Of a stretch of DNA of 46,281 nt, positions 1-43,684 are shown one piece after another. Source of the DNA: a bacterium. GTDB lineage: Bacteria > Oederibacteriota > JAAXVQ01 > JAUVAV01. Both the position numbers and the translations under genes were made by a program. The notes below the pieces were generated by a model. The model ran no database searches. It worked only from the letters and a program-made list of their open reading frames with translations, and had not been told where the DNA came from. The stretch spans positions 1-46,281 of the forward strand of contig JAIORK010000031.1 in NCBI GenBank assembly GCA_021108215.1, given 5' to 3'. Every line of letters starts with the position of its first letter. Position 1 is the first letter of the stretch.

Positions 1-3000
1 TGTGCTTCGCTCCGGTGAGTCCAAAATTATTATCCGCTACTGATTTCGCCGCATTACCTACATCCTTCACATACCAGGTTTGGGTGCGCCCCAACTCGTT
101 GGTCCCATCGGTGTATTCCGTGATGCCGTGGAAATCACTCGACTGAATGGTGGTTTCCGTATGCTTCGCTCCGGTGAGTCCAAAATTATTATCCGCTACT
201 GATTTCGCCGCATTGCCTACATCCTTCACATACCAGGTTTGTGTGCGCCCCAAGTCATTTTCCGCGTCTGTGTGTTCTGTGATGCCGTGATATTCGCTGG
301 AAGTGATTGTCGTCTCAGTGCGACGTGATCCTTTCAGACCAAAGAAATTGTTAATTTCAGACCAGATAGCATTTCCAATGTTTTCCTGATACTCGGTTTT
401 TGTGATGCCTAAACCATTTTTAGCCATGGTTTCCTGAGTAATACCATTGTACTTACTGGCCGTGATCTCCGTGGTGCTTACCAAAGAACCCTTTAAACCA
501 TAATTATTCCTGCTCGTGCTTTTTACGGCAATACCATAAGGCCCGCCATCCCGCGTATCAAAAAAAGTTTCCGTGACTCCCAACTCGTTGGCAGCTTTAG
601 AGTATCGCTGCAATCCATGCCGGGGATCCATATCAACCATGGTTTCTGTATAAAGCGCACCTTTGAGACCAAAATTATTCATCGAAATATTTTTGGATTC
701 CAATCCGGTTCTGGCATCAAATCCCAAACTCGTGGTTGTCCCAAAATCACTTGCGGAAACCCGCCGGGTGGTTATGCCTGTCTCCGTATGAAACTCGGAA
801 TGGGTTGTGGTATTACGAGAAGCATACAGTCCGACCTTGCTATAGCGAATGGTATCTATAGCGTCACCATGAATGTCATAGGTGCTGACAGTTTTACCAA
901 GATCATCTTCTGTGGAATTACTCTGAATACGGCCAAATTCGTCATACACATACTCGGCACTGACTTTGTATCTCCCGTTCAACAATCCGTAATTATCATT
1001 TTGTTCTGAATACCGGACCAACGAATCTTTATCAAACTCTTTTTTTATCGTGGTGAGAAGATTCTTACTCAGCGCTGTTGTCATGAATCCATTGCTGTCA
1101 TACCGGTTTGTTGTTATCGTGTTCCGACTAAATTCGAGACCATATTGATCATACCGAATATTGTGAGTGGCCAAGCCATCAATGTCGAACTCCGTTATCG
1201 TGCATCCCTTGATGTCTGTTTCTTTACTGTTGCTCAGGTAGCCGACACTGTTATATAAATTGACCGTCCATTGATTCCTGGCATGCCCATAGGTATTCAC
1301 ACGATGCGAGACCGTAACCAATTCATCAATATTATAAAAATTTTCAGTAGTGCCGTTGACATCTTCGCTACGACTATACGTCATATAAGCGTTGTTATCA
1401 TATTCAAAGGTCGTATGCTCTGTTCTTGGAAATCCGATTTTTTTCTCCTTGGTGGTTTCACGCATAAGACCGTCAACATCAAATTTATTATGATCTGTGA
1501 AGCGATCTGTATCCGTAATGCTGCTTACCAGTTCCCCTTTCTCATAAGTATACGTTGTCGTTTTTCTTTTTGGAAACCCATGAATATCCAGACGAACACT
1601 TTCTTCCATCTGACCATCACTATTAAAAGTATTCCGTGTTTGACCACGATCATCCAGCTGTACACTCGATTCGATATCACCACCATCGTCATAAAAGTTA
1701 TAGGTCCAATTCTCGCGAGGGAATCCATGATAATTAATGCGATGCACTTTATACGGAAGCTCATTTTCATTATAATAGGTAATCGTCTTGCCTTTTACGT
1801 CATAAGATACTGAAACGTGAAGCATCGCATCTTTGTAAGTTCTTTCTTCTTCTGTTTTGCGCGGATAACCAATTTCATTTTCACGGACAATTGTTTCCAA
1901 ATCGCCGTATTTATTAAATCTGGTAATCGTTTTTCCTTTATCATCCGTCATCAACGAATTCGAGATTTTTCCTTCGGCATACTGATTGACTGTGAATTTT
2001 TCCCCTCCCCATTTATCTGTATTATGAGCTTCGATGGGTTGGCCGGTTCCATTGTAATTGCTCTTGGTGATGCCATCCGGCCCCTGTTCCGTACTGGTAA
2101 TCATATATTTTCCGGCATATTGATACGTAGTGACAATAACTTTTCCATTGTGCTTGGTATAGGTTGTTTCCTCGGGCTGATCCGAGGTTGCATCCCGATT
2201 GACCGAAACTGTCACGCCAAATGAACCGTATGTATATTGGACACGTTTGCCACTGGCGGTCATGCCATAGCTTGTGATTTCAACCACACCGCTGTTTTTA
2301 ACCATAACCTTACGCTCAGCCAATTTGGTGTCTTCCACATAATCCGTCATAGTCATACTTTTTCTGTCTTTTGTGATGCTGAAAACCAAACGGTTGGCAT
2401 CATTATACGTATAATCTGTAATCGAATCCTCATTTTCAGAGCGAATACGGTTGCCCTTGCCATCATAAATGTTCTTGGTTTTTTTTCCGTACTGATCAGT
2501 CTCAGCAAGCACATTACCGTTGTCATCGTACTGTTTGATCACCACGGACGAGTAACTTTGACCGCCAAATTTATAAGTAATAATCTCAGAGGACGATATC
2601 AAATTACCCTTTTCATCGACAACATTGGTAATAGTGGTTTCGCTCTGATCAGTTCTTGTTCCGACAACCTTGCCGGTTTCATCATAAATGGTTAGTTTCT
2701 GTGTCGGTTTAGTACCATCGGAGGGCTTGGTTTCTTCGTTCCGCGAAAGAATTTTTCCCTCTGCATTGGTTTGGTATGTATAAGTATGTTGTCCATTTGC
2801 ATTTTCCATCTCCCTGACTCGACCCTGATCATCATATTTCTTCGTGGTAATGTCTTCCATCAAACCATTGGAAGTCGGCATCATTTTAATCTCTTTTTTC
2901 TCAATTAAAACACCTTTTGAATTCACAATATTTTCAAATGTGGTTTTAATTCCATTACGGCGTTCTTCAACCATTTGGCCATTTTCATATTTCTTGGTAA

Positions 3001-3733
3001 CAACATTCCCGGCAGAATCACGTTCTACCACGCCGACTTTCTCGCCATCCTCATTGTATTGATTCTCGATATCGGTCCGGATATTGTTGCCGTCAATTTT
3101 AGCAATAACTTCACCATTTTTCGGGTTCAGGATGCTGGTTATAGTTTTATTGCTGGAGAGGTCAGTCTCGATATAACTGACTGTTTTTCCTTTATCATTT
3201 TTTATATGGTTGGAAAATATTTTAGTTCCTTGAGAATCTGTGACTTGTATCGTATTGCCCTTGTCATCAAACAACTTGGTGAACACCCCGGCAGCGGAAT
3301 GCTTCGCCATTTTTTGCAGTTTACCGGTAGATGATTTAAAATACTTGGTGTGTGAAATCAGCGCACCGTCGGGAGCCCTCTCCTCCGTCGGCATACCGTC
3401 TTCATACAGTGTGGTTTTACCGTACTTATCGGTAACTTTAGTAAGCTGGCCCTTGTCATTGTACTTCCGAACTTCATTATTCATCAATGTAATCGTAATT
3501 TCCGGTTCATCGCTCACATCCAACACCGAAGTGCTGCGAATGTTCTGCCCTTGATCTTCCAGTAATTTTATAATCTTAGGAAGAATTTTCTCTTCTACCA
3601 CTCCGGCATTGGACAGGGACACGCCTATAAATAGCAACAGGGTGCCTAAGAGTGCGAGTGTCCCCAGCCAATTGATCCTGCCAAAGACTAAACTCAAAGA
3701 ATTCATTTTTGGATACGCATGAATGGAAGCCAT
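1..3733 (-). CDS. Giant secreted YD/RHS-like repeat protein (3' end outside window)
   Basis: An uninterrupted reading frame starts at ATG 3733 and runs off the left edge, giving at least 1244 residues. AAGGAGG sits 7 bases before the ATG. Residues 18-38 are one hydrophobic helix followed by SNA, a signal peptide or membrane anchor. Residues about 60-600 carry irregular YD-like units (KYDDQGRV, YDGKGNRIRSEN, YNDANRLVFS) typical of RHS/YD-repeat surface proteins. From about residue 622 the units become regular, 48-49 residues long and ending in G(F/Y)PR or GFPK. From about residue 1015 they become 53-residue units with the motif NNFGLKG or NNFGLTG. The family is known for extracellular shells and toxin delivery, but no toxin, RHS core or cleavage motif is visible, because the C-terminus is missing. 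Neighbours give no functional clue. Confidence 0.85.
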   Translation of the reverse strand, partial: MASIHAYPKMNSLSLVFGRINWLGTLALLGTLLLFIGVSLSNAGVVEEKILPKIIKLLEDQGQNIRSTSVLDVSDEPEITITLMNNEVRKYNDKGQLTKVTDKYGKTTLYEDGMPTEERAPDGALISHTKYFKSSTGKLQKMAKHSAAGVFTKLFDDKGNTIQVTDSQGTKIFSNHIKNDKGKTVSYIETDLSSNKTITSILNPKNGEVIAKIDGNNIRTDIENQYNEDGEKVGVVERDSAGNVVTKKYENGQMVEERRNGIKTTFENIVNSKGVLIEKKEIKMMPTSNGLMEDITTKKYDDQGRVREMENANGQHTYTYQTNAEGKILSRNEETKPSDGTKPTQKLTIYDETGKVVGTRTDQSETTITNVVDEKGNLISSSEIITYKFGGQSYSSVVIKQYDDNGNVLAETDQYGKKTKNIYDGKGNRIRSENEDSITDYTYNDANRLVFSITKDRKSMTMTDYVEDTKLAERKVMVKNSGVVEITSYGMTASGKRVQYTYGSFGVTVSVNRDATSDQPEETTYTKHNGKVIVTTYQYAGKYMITSTEQGPDGITKSNYNGTGQPIEAHNTDKWGGEKFTVNQYAEGKISNSLMTDDKGKTITRFNKYGDLETIVRENEIGYPRKTEEERTYKDAMLHVSVSYDVKGKTITYYNENELPYKVHRINYHGFPRENWTYNFYDDGGDIESSVQLDDRGQTRNTFNSDGQMEESVRLDIHGFPKRKTTTYTYEKGELVSSITDTDRFTDHNKFDVDGLMRETTKEKKIGFPRTEHTTFEYDNNAYMTYSRSEDVNGTTENFYNIDELVTVSHRVNTYGHARNQWTVNLYNSVGYLSNSKETDIKGCTITEFDIDGLATHNIRYDQYGLEFSRNTITTNRYDSNGFMTTALSKNLLTTIKKEFDKDSLVRYSEQNDNYGLLNGRYKVSAEYVYDEFGRIQSNSTEDDLGKTVSTYDIHGDAIDTIRYSKVGLYASRNTTTHSEFHTETGITTRRVSASDFGTTTSLGFDARTGLESKNISMNNFGLKGALYTETMVDMDPRHGLQRYSKAANELGVTETFFDTRDGGPYGIAVKSTSRNNYGLKGSLVSTTEITASKYNGITQETMAKNGLGITKTEYQENIGNAIWSEINNFFGLKGSRRTETTITSSEYHGITEHTDAENDLGRTQTWYVKDVGNAAKSVADNNFGLTGAKHTETTIQSSDFHGITEYTDGTNELGRTQTWYVKDVGNAAKSVADNNFGLTGAKH
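3..644 (-). repeat. Tandem 159-bp (53-residue) coding repeats
   Basis: Units begin near 3, 162, 321 and 480, with a further related unit starting near 645, all in the same frame of the giant repeat protein. The first 53 bases of the units at 3 and 162 are identical, and the first ~80 bases differ at only two positions; the second halves have diverged more. Each unit encodes GLTGAKHTET...FHGITE...NELGRTQTWYV...GNAAKSVADNNF in variants. The unit starting at 480 carries about two extra codons. Confidence 0.85.
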
Positions 3734-3803
3734 GCCGGTCCCTCCTTAACAACTAAATTATTTATAAAAATATTAATAAATATTGTTTTTTCGTTTTGGA
3801 TAA

Positions 3804-3832
3804 AGCATATCACACCAACTAGGGGAATACAA
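3804..3832 (-). promoter_or_regulatory. Candidate promoter of the giant repeat protein
   Basis: On the minus strand TTGTAT (3827-3832), a 17-base spacer and TATGCT (3804-3809). Both boxes match the sigma-70 consensus at four of six positions. The predicted leader would be about 60 bases and ends in a strong Shine-Dalgarno. Confidence 0.4.
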
Positions 3833-4169
3833 ATCTCGCCATTTCATGATACCGATTATTTATTATTGTTTTTATGAATTTCACCCTTCCGGAAATCTCT
3901 TGTAAAAAAACCGGGAATTAGCCGAGAAAAACTCCAAATGGGGCCTGTTTTCTTCTCAATAACAATTTCTGTATCAGTTTAAAAAAGAAAAACTACCGAA
4001 AAACTTTATTCCGCCTACATTATAGTGCACTTTTTTTCCAAAACAACTTACCGGCGCTTTGTTCCTTTCCCACCAAAATAATCCTTGGATAGTATTATTT
4101 TCCAACACACCTCAAAAAGAGCAACTTGCATTTTTTTTTATTTTTTTCAATTCCCGTTCTAATCCGGCA

Positions 4170-4287
4170 TCCTGCATTCGCCGGACACGATCCACCGAAC
4201 AAGAAATCGTGTGCCCAACGGAAGTCCCAATGCTACTCTATTTCCGGCCAGGATGACTTCTGAAAACCCTGTCCTGCGAATGCAGAA
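4170..4287. repeat. 118-bp inverted-repeat element
   Basis: The left arm TCCTGCATTCGCCGGACA (4170-4187) matches the reverse complement of the right arm (4270-4287) at 16 of 18 positions. The interior contains CCAACGGAAGTCCCA (about 4214-4228), a word also found in the ~200-bp elements at 7017 and 19018. No ORF is inside. It looks like a small non-autonomous palindromic element; only one copy is in the window. Confidence 0.6.
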
Positions 4288-31301: not shown

Positions 31302-31328
31302 AGTTCCACCTCCAATTTGTGTAATAAT

Positions 31329-31443
31329 AAAAAAACGGATGATAGTAATCATCCGCTCAAGATATTTTTATCCTGTTGAACATGCATAAAGCCCTGGCTG
31401 ACAGCCTTACAATGCGCGTCGCCGGGCGAGAAGCGGATGCTTC
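31329..31443 (-). promoter_or_regulatory. infC leader: probable transcription attenuator
   Basis: The 3' part is an intrinsic terminator: arms CGGATGAT and ATCATCCG (31336-31355) followed by seven T. The 5' part has a small hairpin GAAGC-ATCC-GCTTC (31430-31443). The upstream CATCCGCT can instead pair over 8 bp with AGCGGATG of the terminator's left arm, giving mutually exclusive folds. This is the layout of an attenuator such as the L20 leaders of other bacteria; which ligand acts here is inferred only. Confidence 0.7.
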
Positions 31444-31475
31444 TTCTTTGATCGTCACCTAATTTTTAAAAAATT

Positions 31476-35513: not shown

Positions 35514-35540
35514 TTTAAATACGACCAATGATCGCAATTG

Positions 35541-35650
35541 TCTTCTCTCATCCCGACTTTAACGGTCGGCTCCGGAAATGAACCGGATCAATCCTGTTAC
35601 CAGGATTCGCGGGCTTTACCGCCGGTGGAGAATCTCACCCCGCCCCGAAG
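35541..35650 (-). ncRNA. FMN riboswitch aptamer (RFN element)
   Basis: The minus strand carries the conserved blocks of the RFN element in order: CTTCGGGGCGGGGTGA, CACCGGCGGTAAAGCCCGCGA, GATCCGGT, TTCCGGAGCCGACCGT and AAAGTCGGGATGAGAGAAG. It should sense flavin mononucleotide and switch off ribD-ribE-ribBA-ribH. Only about 12 bases separate it from the OmpA-like gene; a weak TTGTTT/TATGAA pair lies inside that gene's last codons. Confidence 0.93.
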
Positions 35651-35662
35651 ACTTCATAAAAT

Positions 35663-39246: not shown

Positions 39247-42200
39247 CTACTTTTTTTTCTTTTTTGATTTAGAACCCGATTTTTTAGTCGACTTCGGTGC
39301 CTTTTTCTTATTGGTGTTTTGCTGTAAAAAAGCATCAACATCAGCTTTATGCTCAAGTTTTATGATTGAAACACGACTTTTAGCCGCTTCCGTCCATTCC
39401 GGTTTTCCACCGGAAGTCGCCAAATCACTATAAATATCGTACGCATTTCCCCATTTTTGCAGGTCTTCGTAAAGGGTACCCAGTTTGGCCAATGCCGTCA
39501 AGCGATAAACATCACTCTTCGGCCGCAACGCCCGCATCCTTTCAAACGCTTTGGCAGCTTCTTCCTTGCTTTCCATTTGTAAATAGGCATCAGCGATCGA
39601 GTACAAAAGTTCCCCTTTTTGATCTGCAAATTCCTTTTTGCCTGCCATTTCTTCATAAATTTTGATTGCCGACGGAAAACGTTTCTCATCCCGGTACGTA
39701 CTCGCAATCTGCATCAGACTCTCTTTGGCCTTGGGGTCCTCCGGATATTTTTTATAAAATTCAGTATAGGTTTCAATTGCTTGCCGCCATTTTTTTAACC
39801 GCTTATACCCCAGGGCGATATTGTACATTGCATTGGCGGCATATTCAGAATCTCCGTGCAAATCAACAATGTCCCGATAAGCAACAATAGAGGCTTCATA
39901 ATCTTCTTTGGCAAAATAGGCCGACCCCAGACGAAAGCGGACATCTTCTACAAGTTCATGGGTCGAAAAATTTCTGATAAATGCCTGATAACTGCGAATG
40001 GCCTTTGCCCGTTTCCCCAGCCCTTCATGACAAATGGCAATATAATATTGTGCGTTGGGAAGCATGGTACTTTCCGGATAATCAGCAATCACTTGTTGAA
40101 AAGTAGCAATGGTTTGCTCAAGATTTTTTTCCTGATAATAAATTTCCGCCACTCGGTAAAGTGCATCAACCGCCAAACGGCTATTGGGGAAATTGGTAAC
40201 AAACTCCATCAACTGCGGCACCGCATCTGCTGAGGCGCCTTTGCGGTAAAAACTCATTTGGATGCCTTCCATGGCCGTTTTTACCTTCGGATCCTCCGGA
40301 TAATCATTAATGAACTTCTTATAGGCTGCTATGGCCTTGTTATCCATTTTCGCATTGTAGTAGCATTGGGCGATATGCAGTTGCATTTCCTTACGATGGG
40401 GATTGCTCTCTTCAGGCCACTCTTCCAGCATTTTGTATGCAGCGATGGCTTGTTCATATTTTTGAGCTTTAAAAAACGTATCCGCCATTTTGTATGCCGC
40501 CTCAGGCGCTTTTTCACTTTTTCTAAAATAGGTAACAACACGTTGCCAGGCATCAATCGCATTGGCATAATATTCCAACTGAAAGTAAGCCTGCCCGGCA
40601 TAAAAATAGGCATCCCCGGCTTCTTTCATTTTGGGATTTAGTTTTGCAAACGTTTCGTATTTAACAATGGCATCTTCATATTTTTTTCGATTAAAAAGAT
40701 TGTGCGCTACCATCAGCGTCGCAAACGTTTTTAACTTAGCCGGTGCATCCTCTGATTCTTCCAGGTCCTTGGCAGTACGCCGGGACTCTTTAAACTTTCC
40801 CTCTTCAAACAAACTATATGCCAGCCCCAATTTGGACCAATGCAATATCGGTGAATCGGAAAAATTCTCCACTATTTTTTTATACTGTCCTGCAGCCTGC
40901 GAATACATATTCATATGAAAATACGCCTCCCCAAGGTAAAAATACGAGAGAGAACGCCATGTGCTCTTTGAAGGCGGAAAATTTGCCGCCAGCACTTTGA
41001 GAATATAATGCGTGGTGGAAATAAGTTGCTCATACTGTTCGGGAATATAATAGGCCATTTGTAAGGCCGCCAGCGCAGCATCGGAAACATCGGAATATTT
41101 ATACTTCATCAAAATACTCTGATAAATCGGAATTGCCTGCACATAACGTTCTTGCTTAAAATAACTATTCCCAAGTAAATAAGTGGCCAATTGAACATTT
41201 TCATGAATCGGATAGGTTGTCAAAAACTCTCTAAATGTTTTCAAGGCCTCTTTGGAACGGTCCATTTTCAAAAGTGTCCAACCCGCCTTGAATTTAGCGC
41301 TGCCGGATACATACATATTCGGATAATCATTACTAACTTGATTGTACGTTTGGATTGCTTCTTGCCTATTTCCCATTTGGCGGAGGCATTCACCCTTGAT
41401 ATAAAGCGTATTGGCCACCAAGGTGGACCGTCCATTTTCAGAAATCAATGTGTTTAAATTTTTTAAAGCAGCTGTGAAATCATCTTGGCGGATTTGGCAA
41501 ACCGCTATTTTATACAGTGCATAGGCACGATATTTGGATTGCGGATAATCCCGCAAGAAACCCCGGAATTCCTTAACCGCAACCGAGTAATTTTTCCCTT
41601 TGTAGTATGAATCCGCCTTACTATAGGCGGCATCCAGCAGATAGTTGGAGTCAGGATATTTTTCCAGGATTTTTTTATAATTTGCCGCCGCCGGTAAAAA
41701 ACGCCCCAGATGCTCCTGACAACGCCCGACAAAATACAACGCCATATCACCGTCAACGCTGCTAAAGTATTGCAATGCCTGATTGTATTGACGGTTATGA
41801 AAATAAACCAATCCCAGGGGTAATTTAACCTTCTTTTCTTTACGATAATGCGGAAAACGCCGGGTTAATTCATTAATCGACTTTGATGCATTTCGCCATT
41901 TTTTCCGCGCAATATAACAAAGGATCTTGCCATAGTAGGCCTCCGCTTTTAAAAAAGACCGCGGATACTTTTGCATAAATTTATCCCAGTGAAAAACGGC
42001 CATTTTATAATCTTTTTGATTATACGCACATTCGCCGATACGGTAGGCAGCCGAATCAGCGTAAGGTTCATTGGGATGTTTTTTTAAAAATTCTTGATAG
42101 GATTTTAATGCCTTATCATAAAAACGTTGTTGAAATTGCGTCTCGGCCACCATATAAAAGGCGCGGGCGGCATTATCCATCCGGTTATATTTTTTGTAAA

Positions 42201-42387
42201 AATCCTGCCACATCTTAGGCAACGCTGTATCTTCCAGATCAACCACCGTGGAATCAAACGCTTGCTGCCAAGCCTCCTTGGCCATTTTCTCTTTTTCCAA
42301 ATCCTCGGCAACCGCCGCTAATCCGGAGAAAAAAACCAGCATCAGTCCAACTAGGACAACAAACAATCCTTTAGCTTTACCAAACAT
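39247..42387 (-). CDS. Giant exported TPR protein
   Basis: 1046 residues from ATG 42387 with AGGGG upstream; the longer open frame overlaps the PorV-like gene and lacks a ribosome site. Signal peptide about 1-27 (LAAVA). About 25-30 TPR units fill nearly the whole protein, each with A/Y-rich helices and a DYP or KYP turn (for example FMQKYPRSFLKAEAYYGKIL). The C-terminus is a basic tail of K and S. In tol-type clusters a smaller TPR protein (CpoB/YbgF) often lies here; this one is about four times larger. Function unknown. Confidence 0.85.
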   Translation of the reverse strand: MFGKAKGLFVVLVGLMLVFFSGLAAVAEDLEKEKMAKEAWQQAFDSTVVDLEDTALPKMWQDFYKKYNRMDNAARAFYMVAETQFQQRFYDKALKSYQEFLKKHPNEPYADSAAYRIGECAYNQKDYKMAVFHWDKFMQKYPRSFLKAEAYYGKILCYIARKKWRNASKSINELTRRFPHYRKEKKVKLPLGLVYFHNRQYNQALQYFSSVDGDMALYFVGRCQEHLGRFLPAAANYKKILEKYPDSNYLLDAAYSKADSYYKGKNYSVAVKEFRGFLRDYPQSKYRAYALYKIAVCQIRQDDFTAALKNLNTLISENGRSTLVANTLYIKGECLRQMGNRQEAIQTYNQVSNDYPNMYVSGSAKFKAGWTLLKMDRSKEALKTFREFLTTYPIHENVQLATYLLGNSYFKQERYVQAIPIYQSILMKYKYSDVSDAALAALQMAYYIPEQYEQLISTTHYILKVLAANFPPSKSTWRSLSYFYLGEAYFHMNMYSQAAGQYKKIVENFSDSPILHWSKLGLAYSLFEEGKFKESRRTAKDLEESEDAPAKLKTFATLMVAHNLFNRKKYEDAIVKYETFAKLNPKMKEAGDAYFYAGQAYFQLEYYANAIDAWQRVVTYFRKSEKAPEAAYKMADTFFKAQKYEQAIAAYKMLEEWPEESNPHRKEMQLHIAQCYYNAKMDNKAIAAYKKFINDYPEDPKVKTAMEGIQMSFYRKGASADAVPQLMEFVTNFPNSRLAVDALYRVAEIYYQEKNLEQTIATFQQVIADYPESTMLPNAQYYIAICHEGLGKRAKAIRSYQAFIRNFSTHELVEDVRFRLGSAYFAKEDYEASIVAYRDIVDLHGDSEYAANAMYNIALGYKRLKKWRQAIETYTEFYKKYPEDPKAKESLMQIASTYRDEKRFPSAIKIYEEMAGKKEFADQKGELLYSIADAYLQMESKEEAAKAFERMRALRPKSDVYRLTALAKLGTLYEDLQKWGNAYDIYSDLATSGGKPEWTEAAKSRVSIIKLEHKADVDAFLQQNTNKKKAPKSTKKSGSKSKKKKK

Positions 42388-42442
42388 GGTAAGACCCCTT
42401 TGTATACATTTAGATTCATTGCCCCGGGAAGGAGCCTTTGAT

Positions 42443-43684
42443 TTAGTCAAGTTCAAGTCCGCCTTCGCCGCCAAGTGGAACAGCACTTTGAATTTTGACT
42501 GACTCAAAATTTGACTTAATAATTTTTCCGTTTGTATCTGTAATAATCAATTGCGCACTAAAATTACCATCCGGTGCCGGCAATCCACGATCGTCCTTGC
42601 CATTCCAAGCAATCTGGTTCGGAGGATTTTCTTCCCCGGAATAAGAACGAACGATATCACCGTTTTGATCCTTAATGTTCATTTCCCACTCAATCACTGG
42701 ATATTTCGACACCGCGCGGACTGCAAAAGTCGTAATTTTTTTGATACCAACAGGCGAAAAAATCTTTGGAGTCGCTTTGATGTTCATTTCAAATCCACCC
42801 ATGGAATACCCTGCAGATATTTTATGCGCCAACCCGAGATCCTCAATACTGATGGCATAATCCAAGGTGATGTTTATATATTTTCCACCCAATCCCAAAT
42901 GAACTTTTAATTCATCATTCAAACCGGCACGGACAAACGCCATATCTTCATAAACATCCAGTTCGCCGCCCACCTCCCACTTAAACCCCTGGTTGCCCAA
43001 TGATTTGCTTACATCCAGATCAAGCAGCAAATCATCATTAAACAGTTTCCCGGCAATACCCAAAACCACATTGGTGAAATACATATCGCCGAGCACATTA
43101 GGTGTTAATGCGTTATTCACGTAAATACCAACCTGCATTTCCGGTATCGGACTGTACAAGCCACCCAAATCAATGCCGACGCCTGTCCCGGTGTGGCCAA
43201 AAATATCTTCATAAGCAACCTTAACATTCGCACCCGCAGAAAATCCAGGAATAATATCCCGGGCGTAACTAAGATAAACCGAACCTTGGGAAATGGAATC
43301 CGAAATATTCAGAGGTGTATAGGTTTCATCGACCACGTTAAACCCGGATGAATGCAACATGATAATACCGACACCAATATGACCCACATCTACAATCGGC
43401 ATGGAAAACCCCAGGAAATCAAACATGGTATCCTCAAAAAGGATCACATGCTGGACACCCACCTGAATGGGGTTTTGGGTTGCCAAACCGGCCGGATTGT
43501 AAAAAATCGCGGTCACATCATCAGCCAACCCCGACATGGCACCACCCATACCAGCTGCACGGGCACCAATATCATAGGTCAAGTACTCCCCCGGTAATCC
43601 GTGATCCCCCGTACCGGCTGATGTGATTTGACCAAATCCCGTCAAGGCTACCAGGGACATTGCTATCAGAATACTTTTTTTCAT
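42443..43684 (-). CDS. PorV/UPF0164-family outer-membrane protein with FlgD-like tail
   Basis: 413 residues. Signal peptide 1-23, then GARAAGMGGAMSGLADDVTA and FYNPAGLA, the hallmark of PorV/PorQ and UPF0164 barrels, then beta-strand repeats to about 310. The C-terminus (about 325-405) is a FlgD-like Ig module with QIAWNGKDDRGLPAPDG. PorV proteins shuttle type-IX substrates at the outer membrane in Bacteroidota. It follows the Ig-like protein by 34 bases. Confidence 0.82.
   Translation of the reverse strand: MKKSILIAMSLVALTGFGQITSAGTGDHGLPGEYLTYDIGARAAGMGGAMSGLADDVTAIFYNPAGLATQNPIQVGVQHVILFEDTMFDFLGFSMPIVDVGHIGVGIIMLHSSGFNVVDETYTPLNISDSISQGSVYLSYARDIIPGFSAGANVKVAYEDIFGHTGTGVGIDLGGLYSPIPEMQVGIYVNNALTPNVLGDMYFTNVVLGIAGKLFNDDLLLDLDVSKSLGNQGFKWEVGGELDVYEDMAFVRAGLNDELKVHLGLGGKYINITLDYAISIEDLGLAHKISAGYSMGGFEMNIKATPKIFSPVGIKKITTFAVRAVSKYPVIEWEMNIKDQNGDIVRSYSGEENPPNQIAWNGKDDRGLPAPDGNFSAQLIITDTNGKIIKSNFESVKIQSAVPLGGEGGLELD

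Follow-up and report, generated by a model that had tools for sequence, protein, structure and literature searches.

The described proteins closest to the giant reported here are the Rhs effectors (RhsA, 7q97; Tse5, 8cp6; RhsP, 8h8a/b) and TcB-TcC, with which it has in common a YD/RHS repeat signal and an RHS-type sheet. Nevertheless, it is 2-4 times longer, is built from repeat types of its own (53-63 aa), and neither an RHS core nor an autoproteolysis module, a variable toxin or PAAR/VgrG was found in it. Teneurins and a bacterial teneurin-like protein share with it a long YD shell-type sheet (Foldseek), a location outside the cell (probable for the giant) and the lack of a T6SS toxin role, although the giant carries no EGF, beta-propeller or other teneurin domain recognized by Pfam and its regular array is far longer. 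The giant open reading frames of Omnitrophota and PVC-related bacteria, with few annotated domains and poor conservation (PMC10066038, PMC12057145), resemble it in being very long, poorly annotated, probably surface-located and from uncultured bacteria, whereas the RHS-fold family is conserved across six genera and has a defined architecture; moreover, Omnitrophota-type giants are ORFs of >20 kb with multiple transmembrane helices, while the complete members of this family measure 13.7-14.5 kb. Periscope proteins vary in length through near-identical repeats (PMC9704523) and, like the giant, have a tandem array by which the reach of a surface projection would be fixed, but the units of the giant are saturated at silent sites and its array length is near constant in the few complete members. 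Named relatives are MAGs of candidate division FCPU426 and Candidatus Goldiibacteriota; in the portion of PMC7031533 used here, Goldbacteria are described as cellulose degraders and giant proteins of the RHS-fold type are not mentioned.

The window, that is, the whole stretch of 46,281 nucleotides analysed, is an entire contig (C31) of a 67-contig genome. On its reverse strand, positions 2-3733 encode the N-terminal 1,244 aa of a giant RHS-fold protein in a single ORF, which is open at the contig start, the 3' end of the gene lying beyond the contig end. A ribosome-binding site read from the sequence (AAGGAGG, 3741-3747, reverse strand) is placed 7 bp before the ATG, and residues ~22-43 (WLGTLALLGTLLLFIGVSLSNA; 3605-3670, reverse strand) form a putative hydrophobic export signal or signal anchor, where WLGTLALLGTLLLF is kept in most of the aligned relatives. 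This stretch looks like a Sec signal or a signal anchor, and it is the hydrophobic segment which makes export probable and from which a surface location would follow. Genes for apolipoprotein N-acyltransferase (Lnt) are found beside giants at C9:22834-24525, C9:7200-8894, C48:27662-29374, G002:C123:4212-5879 and G004:C308:4066-5796. A lipoprotein reading, prompted by these genes beside several members, was rejected, since inspection of the export signal of the RHS-fold giants revealed no lipobox cysteine.

A paralogue on contig C9 is 78% identical across all 1,244 window residues, and the ratio between both copies (pN 0.116 / pS 0.682) indicates that the window gene is under purifying selection. 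About 450 bp of the 5' region were carried along in the duplication, the non-coding stretch at 3736-4179 (reverse strand) being 76% identical to that upstream of the C9 paralogue. A misassembly of the open contig end or of the nearly identical units next to it might be suspected in a short-read MAG whose contig break falls exactly in a repeat; nonetheless, the frame stays intact over 1,244 codons, its pN relative to the paralogue is far lower than its pS, and complete arrays were assembled in C1, C9, G004 and G006, which makes such an artefact very improbable. Elsewhere in the window, an FMN riboswitch (106 bits; 35536-35656, reverse strand) and an L20 leader (61 bits; 31321-31454, reverse strand) precede their usual genes and are ordinary, and a 1,086-aa protein consists nearly throughout of TPR repeats (39247-42507, reverse strand).

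The complete window protein probably has ~4,600 aa, the window showing its first quarter; complete relatives measure 4,555 aa (C9), 4,832 aa (C1), 4,634 aa (G004) and 4,695 aa (G006); a divergent family member of 3,200 aa is found on C49. All complete members follow one plan, with a hydrophobic signal, a region of ~1,000 aa in which each unit is conserved in its place and repeat drift is absent, an array of ~1,820-2,090 aa and a C-terminus of ~1,700 aa. In the latter no domain was found by Pfam or NCBIfam, although it is 29-69% conserved among the main members and has a common xDxR motif at or near its end. The genome holds two N-terminal halves broken inside the array (C31 and C9:2-6661) and two C-terminal halves starting in the array at a contig end (C14:66862-73413 and C36:183407-189169), while the array of the C9 paralogue runs on for at least 1,160 aa. 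The C14 end has an exact 54-bp stretch in common with window positions 177-230 and matches both end copies of the window at 61-62 of 63 positions, and no such stretch links the end units of the window to C36 or C9. Because of this shared repeat DNA, the C14 half-gene is probably the missing C-terminus of the C31 gene, and C9a and C36 would, by exclusion, form another single gene.

This completion of the gene bears on the possibility of an ordinary Rhs polymorphic toxin, with core and toxin outside the window, as the YD/RHS repeats of the N-terminal part would allow. The sequence-only reading had noted that the RHS core was lacking in the visible part, and in fact the core model (TIGR03696) matched neither this part nor the C14 half, the other C-terminal half or the complete relatives. 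Its only match in the genome is C39:17517-24803 (G000), an ordinary TcB/SpvB-like protein of 2,429 aa unrelated to the giant family, which confirmed that the search could detect a core and has the SpvB and TcdB-mid domains that are absent from the window giant. Furthermore, no toxin family and no variable C-terminal toxin were found, the C-termini of C14, C36 and the complete relatives being mutually conserved with the common end motif, and Pfam gave no match to PAAR/VgrG (T6SS delivery) in the window protein or the complete relatives. The refuting outcome that had been named beforehand, an RHS core and toxin just outside the window, was therefore looked for and did not materialize. An Rhs toxin is thus hardly credible, and what the window encodes is a real unusual protein, neither an artefact nor an Rhs toxin. 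A search of plasmid records gave generic RHS proteins alone, at ~25% identity.

The YD-like nature of the chain, already proposed from the single frame of at least 1,244 residues, was confirmed by matches to RHS_repeat (Pfam, E 2.1e-9) and TIGR01643 (E 1.4e-5), and the complete G004 member matches RHS_repeat at E 5.8e-19. When the window protein alone was searched against PDB sequences, all matches were attributable to chance, while a profile of the N-terminal region matches Rhs structures in the PDB at E 2.2e-17. AlphaFold, applied to residues 45-1244 with four homologues, predicted an all-beta chain (pLDDT 74, pTM 0.38), and in the model of six array units of G004 each 54-residue unit has four strands, with a short helix in addition (pLDDT 88.6, pTM 0.69). 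The nearest Foldseek matches of both models are Rhs effectors (prob 1.00), teneurins and TcB-TcC, with E-values of 2.6e-27 and 1.6e-9, and the array model also matches OspA single-layer sheet mutants. The predicted fold is therefore a beta sheet of RHS/teneurin type. Its strand pattern carries conviction, but with low TM-scores (0.14-0.33) the models do not discriminate between an open stalk and a closed shell as the overall shape.

Along the window protein, residues 45-1018 (680-3601, reverse strand) form a colinear conserved YD-like region, as indicated by the alignments, the RHS_repeat matches and the structure models. No period is detected in residues 51-600 (-0.498 against -0.503 +/- 0.045 in shuffles), while residues 601-1010 show a weak period at lag 49 (-0.105 against -0.522 +/- 0.057) and residues 1011-1244 a strong one at lag 53 (1.87 against -0.41 +/- 0.08), these statistics, like the others on repeats given here, having been computed on selected sequence stretches. 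Within the second of these segments, the 48-49-residue units that had been announced from about residue 622 could be located: G(F/Y)P(R/K) boundaries stand at residues 622, 670, 719 and 767, followed by GHAR at 816, with a spacing of 48/49/48/49, giving five units with G(F/Y/H)(P/A)(R/K) boundaries over residues 622-864 (1142-1870, reverse strand). The 53-residue units are also present, but they start at about residue 1076 and not at 1015 as had been stated, since the NNFGLKG-type boundaries (1019, 1076, 1129, 1182 and 1235; spacing 57/53/53/53) place one 57-residue unit before them. Residues 1019-1244 (2-679, reverse strand) thus constitute the left edge of the central array.

From this succession it had been concluded that repeat regularity increases in the C-terminal direction, which does not hold in the complete relatives. 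There, the lag profile climbs around residues 1,050-1,120, keeps a high plateau and falls near 2,850-3,050, with irregular flanks on both sides of the array, so that regularity peaks in the middle and decays both ways. Since the profile drops on both sides, the gradient is one of centre against edge and not of N- against C-terminus, and its apparent C-terminal direction is an artefact of the window, in which only the left, rising half is seen. The array spans 1,872, 2,016, 2,088, 1,953 and 1,823 aa in five complete members, at periods of 54, 54, 54, 63 and 53, respectively; as the five are few and share ancestry, this near-constant length is a pattern, not a law.

Continuing recombination at the far end had also been proposed from this gradient, two of the 53-residue units being nearly identical in DNA. 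This near-identity is confined to the right halves of the last two window units (exact over 53 bp, 162-214 and 3-55), whose right 25 codons have a pS of 0.20 against 0.93 in the left 28, the whole units being identical at 133 of 159 positions. The tract, of ~75 bp, can be described as a recent conversion or duplication with one copy at 162-230, which includes the exact 54-bp match to the C14 end, and another at 3-71, which is exact over 53 bp at a lag of 53 aa and matches the C14 end at 61 of 63 positions (both on the reverse strand). The recombination claim therefore stands for one short tract and fails as a general explanation of regularity. In the six arrays tested, comparisons of units within one array give a pS of 0.57-0.79 and a pN of 0.11-0.42, with hardly any effect of distance, whereas fully independent codon choice would give a pS of 0.81-0.85. 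Even C9a units ~83% identical in protein are at a pS of 0.62-0.71, close to the value by which C9a and the window differ in their N-terminal part (0.68). Moreover, each unit of G003 has its counterpart in G004 in the same order (identity of 0.60 on the diagonal against 0.435 overall; 0/2,000 permutations, p<=0.0005), the diagonal exceeding identity within the arrays (0.42-0.47), which means that in this lineage the array has been unchanged since the genera split. As silent sites approach saturation and two genera share the order of their units, the uniformity of the units is mostly old and kept by selection.

A different history is found at the radA-murA locus, where the giants of C1 and G004 have N-termini 58% identical but arrays whose units do not correspond (0.26, the mean being 0.27) and have a different consensus, so the whole array has been replaced in one of the lineages, its length being kept. 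A better reading than continuing recombination is therefore that whole arrays are replaced episodically and then remain in stasis for long periods under purifying selection. For a periscope-type adhesin whose array recombines fast, varies in repeat number between strains and is homogeneous through continuing recombination, it can be argued that a recent tract lies in the last window units, that contigs C31, C14, C9 and C36 all stop inside arrays and that the last C9 units are 83% identical. Nevertheless, near-saturated silent sites in 6/6 arrays, colinearity between genera and the near-constant array length speak against it, with the one recent window tract on the other side of the balance, and we consider such an adhesin unlikely.

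In a set of 45 genomes from the phylum, the RHS-fold giant has strong matches in 6/6 genomes of its own family and 1/2 of the sister family, the rest giving short generic YD matches at most, so that the family is so far confined to one order. Directly beside its members stands a second giant family with KLKxxGxAA-like end residues, which occurs in 6/7 genomes with the RHS-fold family and nowhere else in the phylum set, reaches 23 kb and has no Pfam assignment save one weak RHS match in one member. It follows the C-terminal halves on C14 (6,778 aa) and C36 (7,831 aa), precedes the members on C9 and on C49 (7,247 aa in the latter case) and is found upstream in G002:C123, while the giant at the radA-murA locus stands without a member of it alongside. 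Complete frames measure 6,689, 6,778, 7,247, 7,690 and 7,831 aa, and the loci comprise open frames at C36:159586-183078, C14:46431-66764, C9:24660-35972, C48:~29600-52690 and 53219-61957, G004:C308:6340-26406 (L048/L063), and L061:170-14998 with L038:3-6911. Altogether, the measured open frames of both families amount to ~63,000 codons, or ~5% of the genome.

The same repeat (RVLETVV.DGMTVTVMESLLDTNQN) is present at the open frame ends C48:61957 and C9:35972 (L093, L045), and for this reason C48, C9 and possibly C36 may form one giant-gene cluster of >100 kb. A family of ~900 aa with an N-terminus like that of the giant (C36:156077-158770, G004:C308:290-3007 and G003:C65:185-2884) adjoins or lies near the second giant on C36 and G004:C308. 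A SecA-like helicase, suspected by eye in the second giant of C14, was not confirmed by profile search; SecA_DEAD (51.6 bits) was found at C4:25684-26409 (G000), in an open frame of 9,337 aa, and a normal SecA is encoded on C49.

The partner family is of relevance for a further alternative, a giant closed RHS cocoon resembling TcB-TcC, which would enclose the second giant or assemble with it. The nearest folds, Rhs effectors and TcB-TcC, are indeed closed shells, and the second giant is directly alongside on C14, C36, C9, C49 and G002:C123 and present in most genomes of the family. However, core, plug and cleavage domain were not found, ~4,000 aa of sheet would be twice any solved shell, and the radA-murA copy stands without a partner, all of which renders the cocoon rather improbable. 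Our preferred reading, which we hold to be evenly balanced between right and wrong, is that of lineage-specific exported giants (~4,550-4,830 aa) made nearly entirely of RHS/YD beta sheet, which are not Rhs toxins but stalks or tubes with array fold and length under selection; in broader terms, an exported surface stalk or shell is most likely. Once exported, the chain would build an extended, uninterrupted beta-sheet stalk or tube at the cell surface, anchored or capped by the N-terminal region, its length set by the array, and the conserved C-terminal region would carry a binding or capping function. Selection would fix the array fold and its total length (1,823-2,088 aa) and not the unit sequence, and because of this one unit type could occasionally be amplified and replace the whole array, after which the units would stay put and diverge slowly. 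The window copy, with its recent conversion tract at the broken end, may be at the start of such a replacement episode. More tentatively, and with the chances tilted against it, a two-giant surface machine can be envisaged, in which an RHS-fold stalk or tube, its array held near 1,950 residues while the sequence is periodically replaced, would operate with a dedicated membrane-linked partner of 6,000-7,800 aa, in several paralogous copies that take up, partner family included, the above share of the genome.

In a deep uncultured lineage, the RHS fold is here seen apart from the toxin function that it normally serves. The family also offers a clean natural case in which unit sequence is exchanged but array length is conserved, so that one can ask whether it is structural length or unit sequence that selection acts on. 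These results also concern how repeats are read in general, since uniformity at the protein level is commonly taken as recent recombination, a view that silent sites here mostly contradict. Finally, the neighbouring second giant family suggests an undescribed surface system on which these bacteria would spend a large share of their genome.
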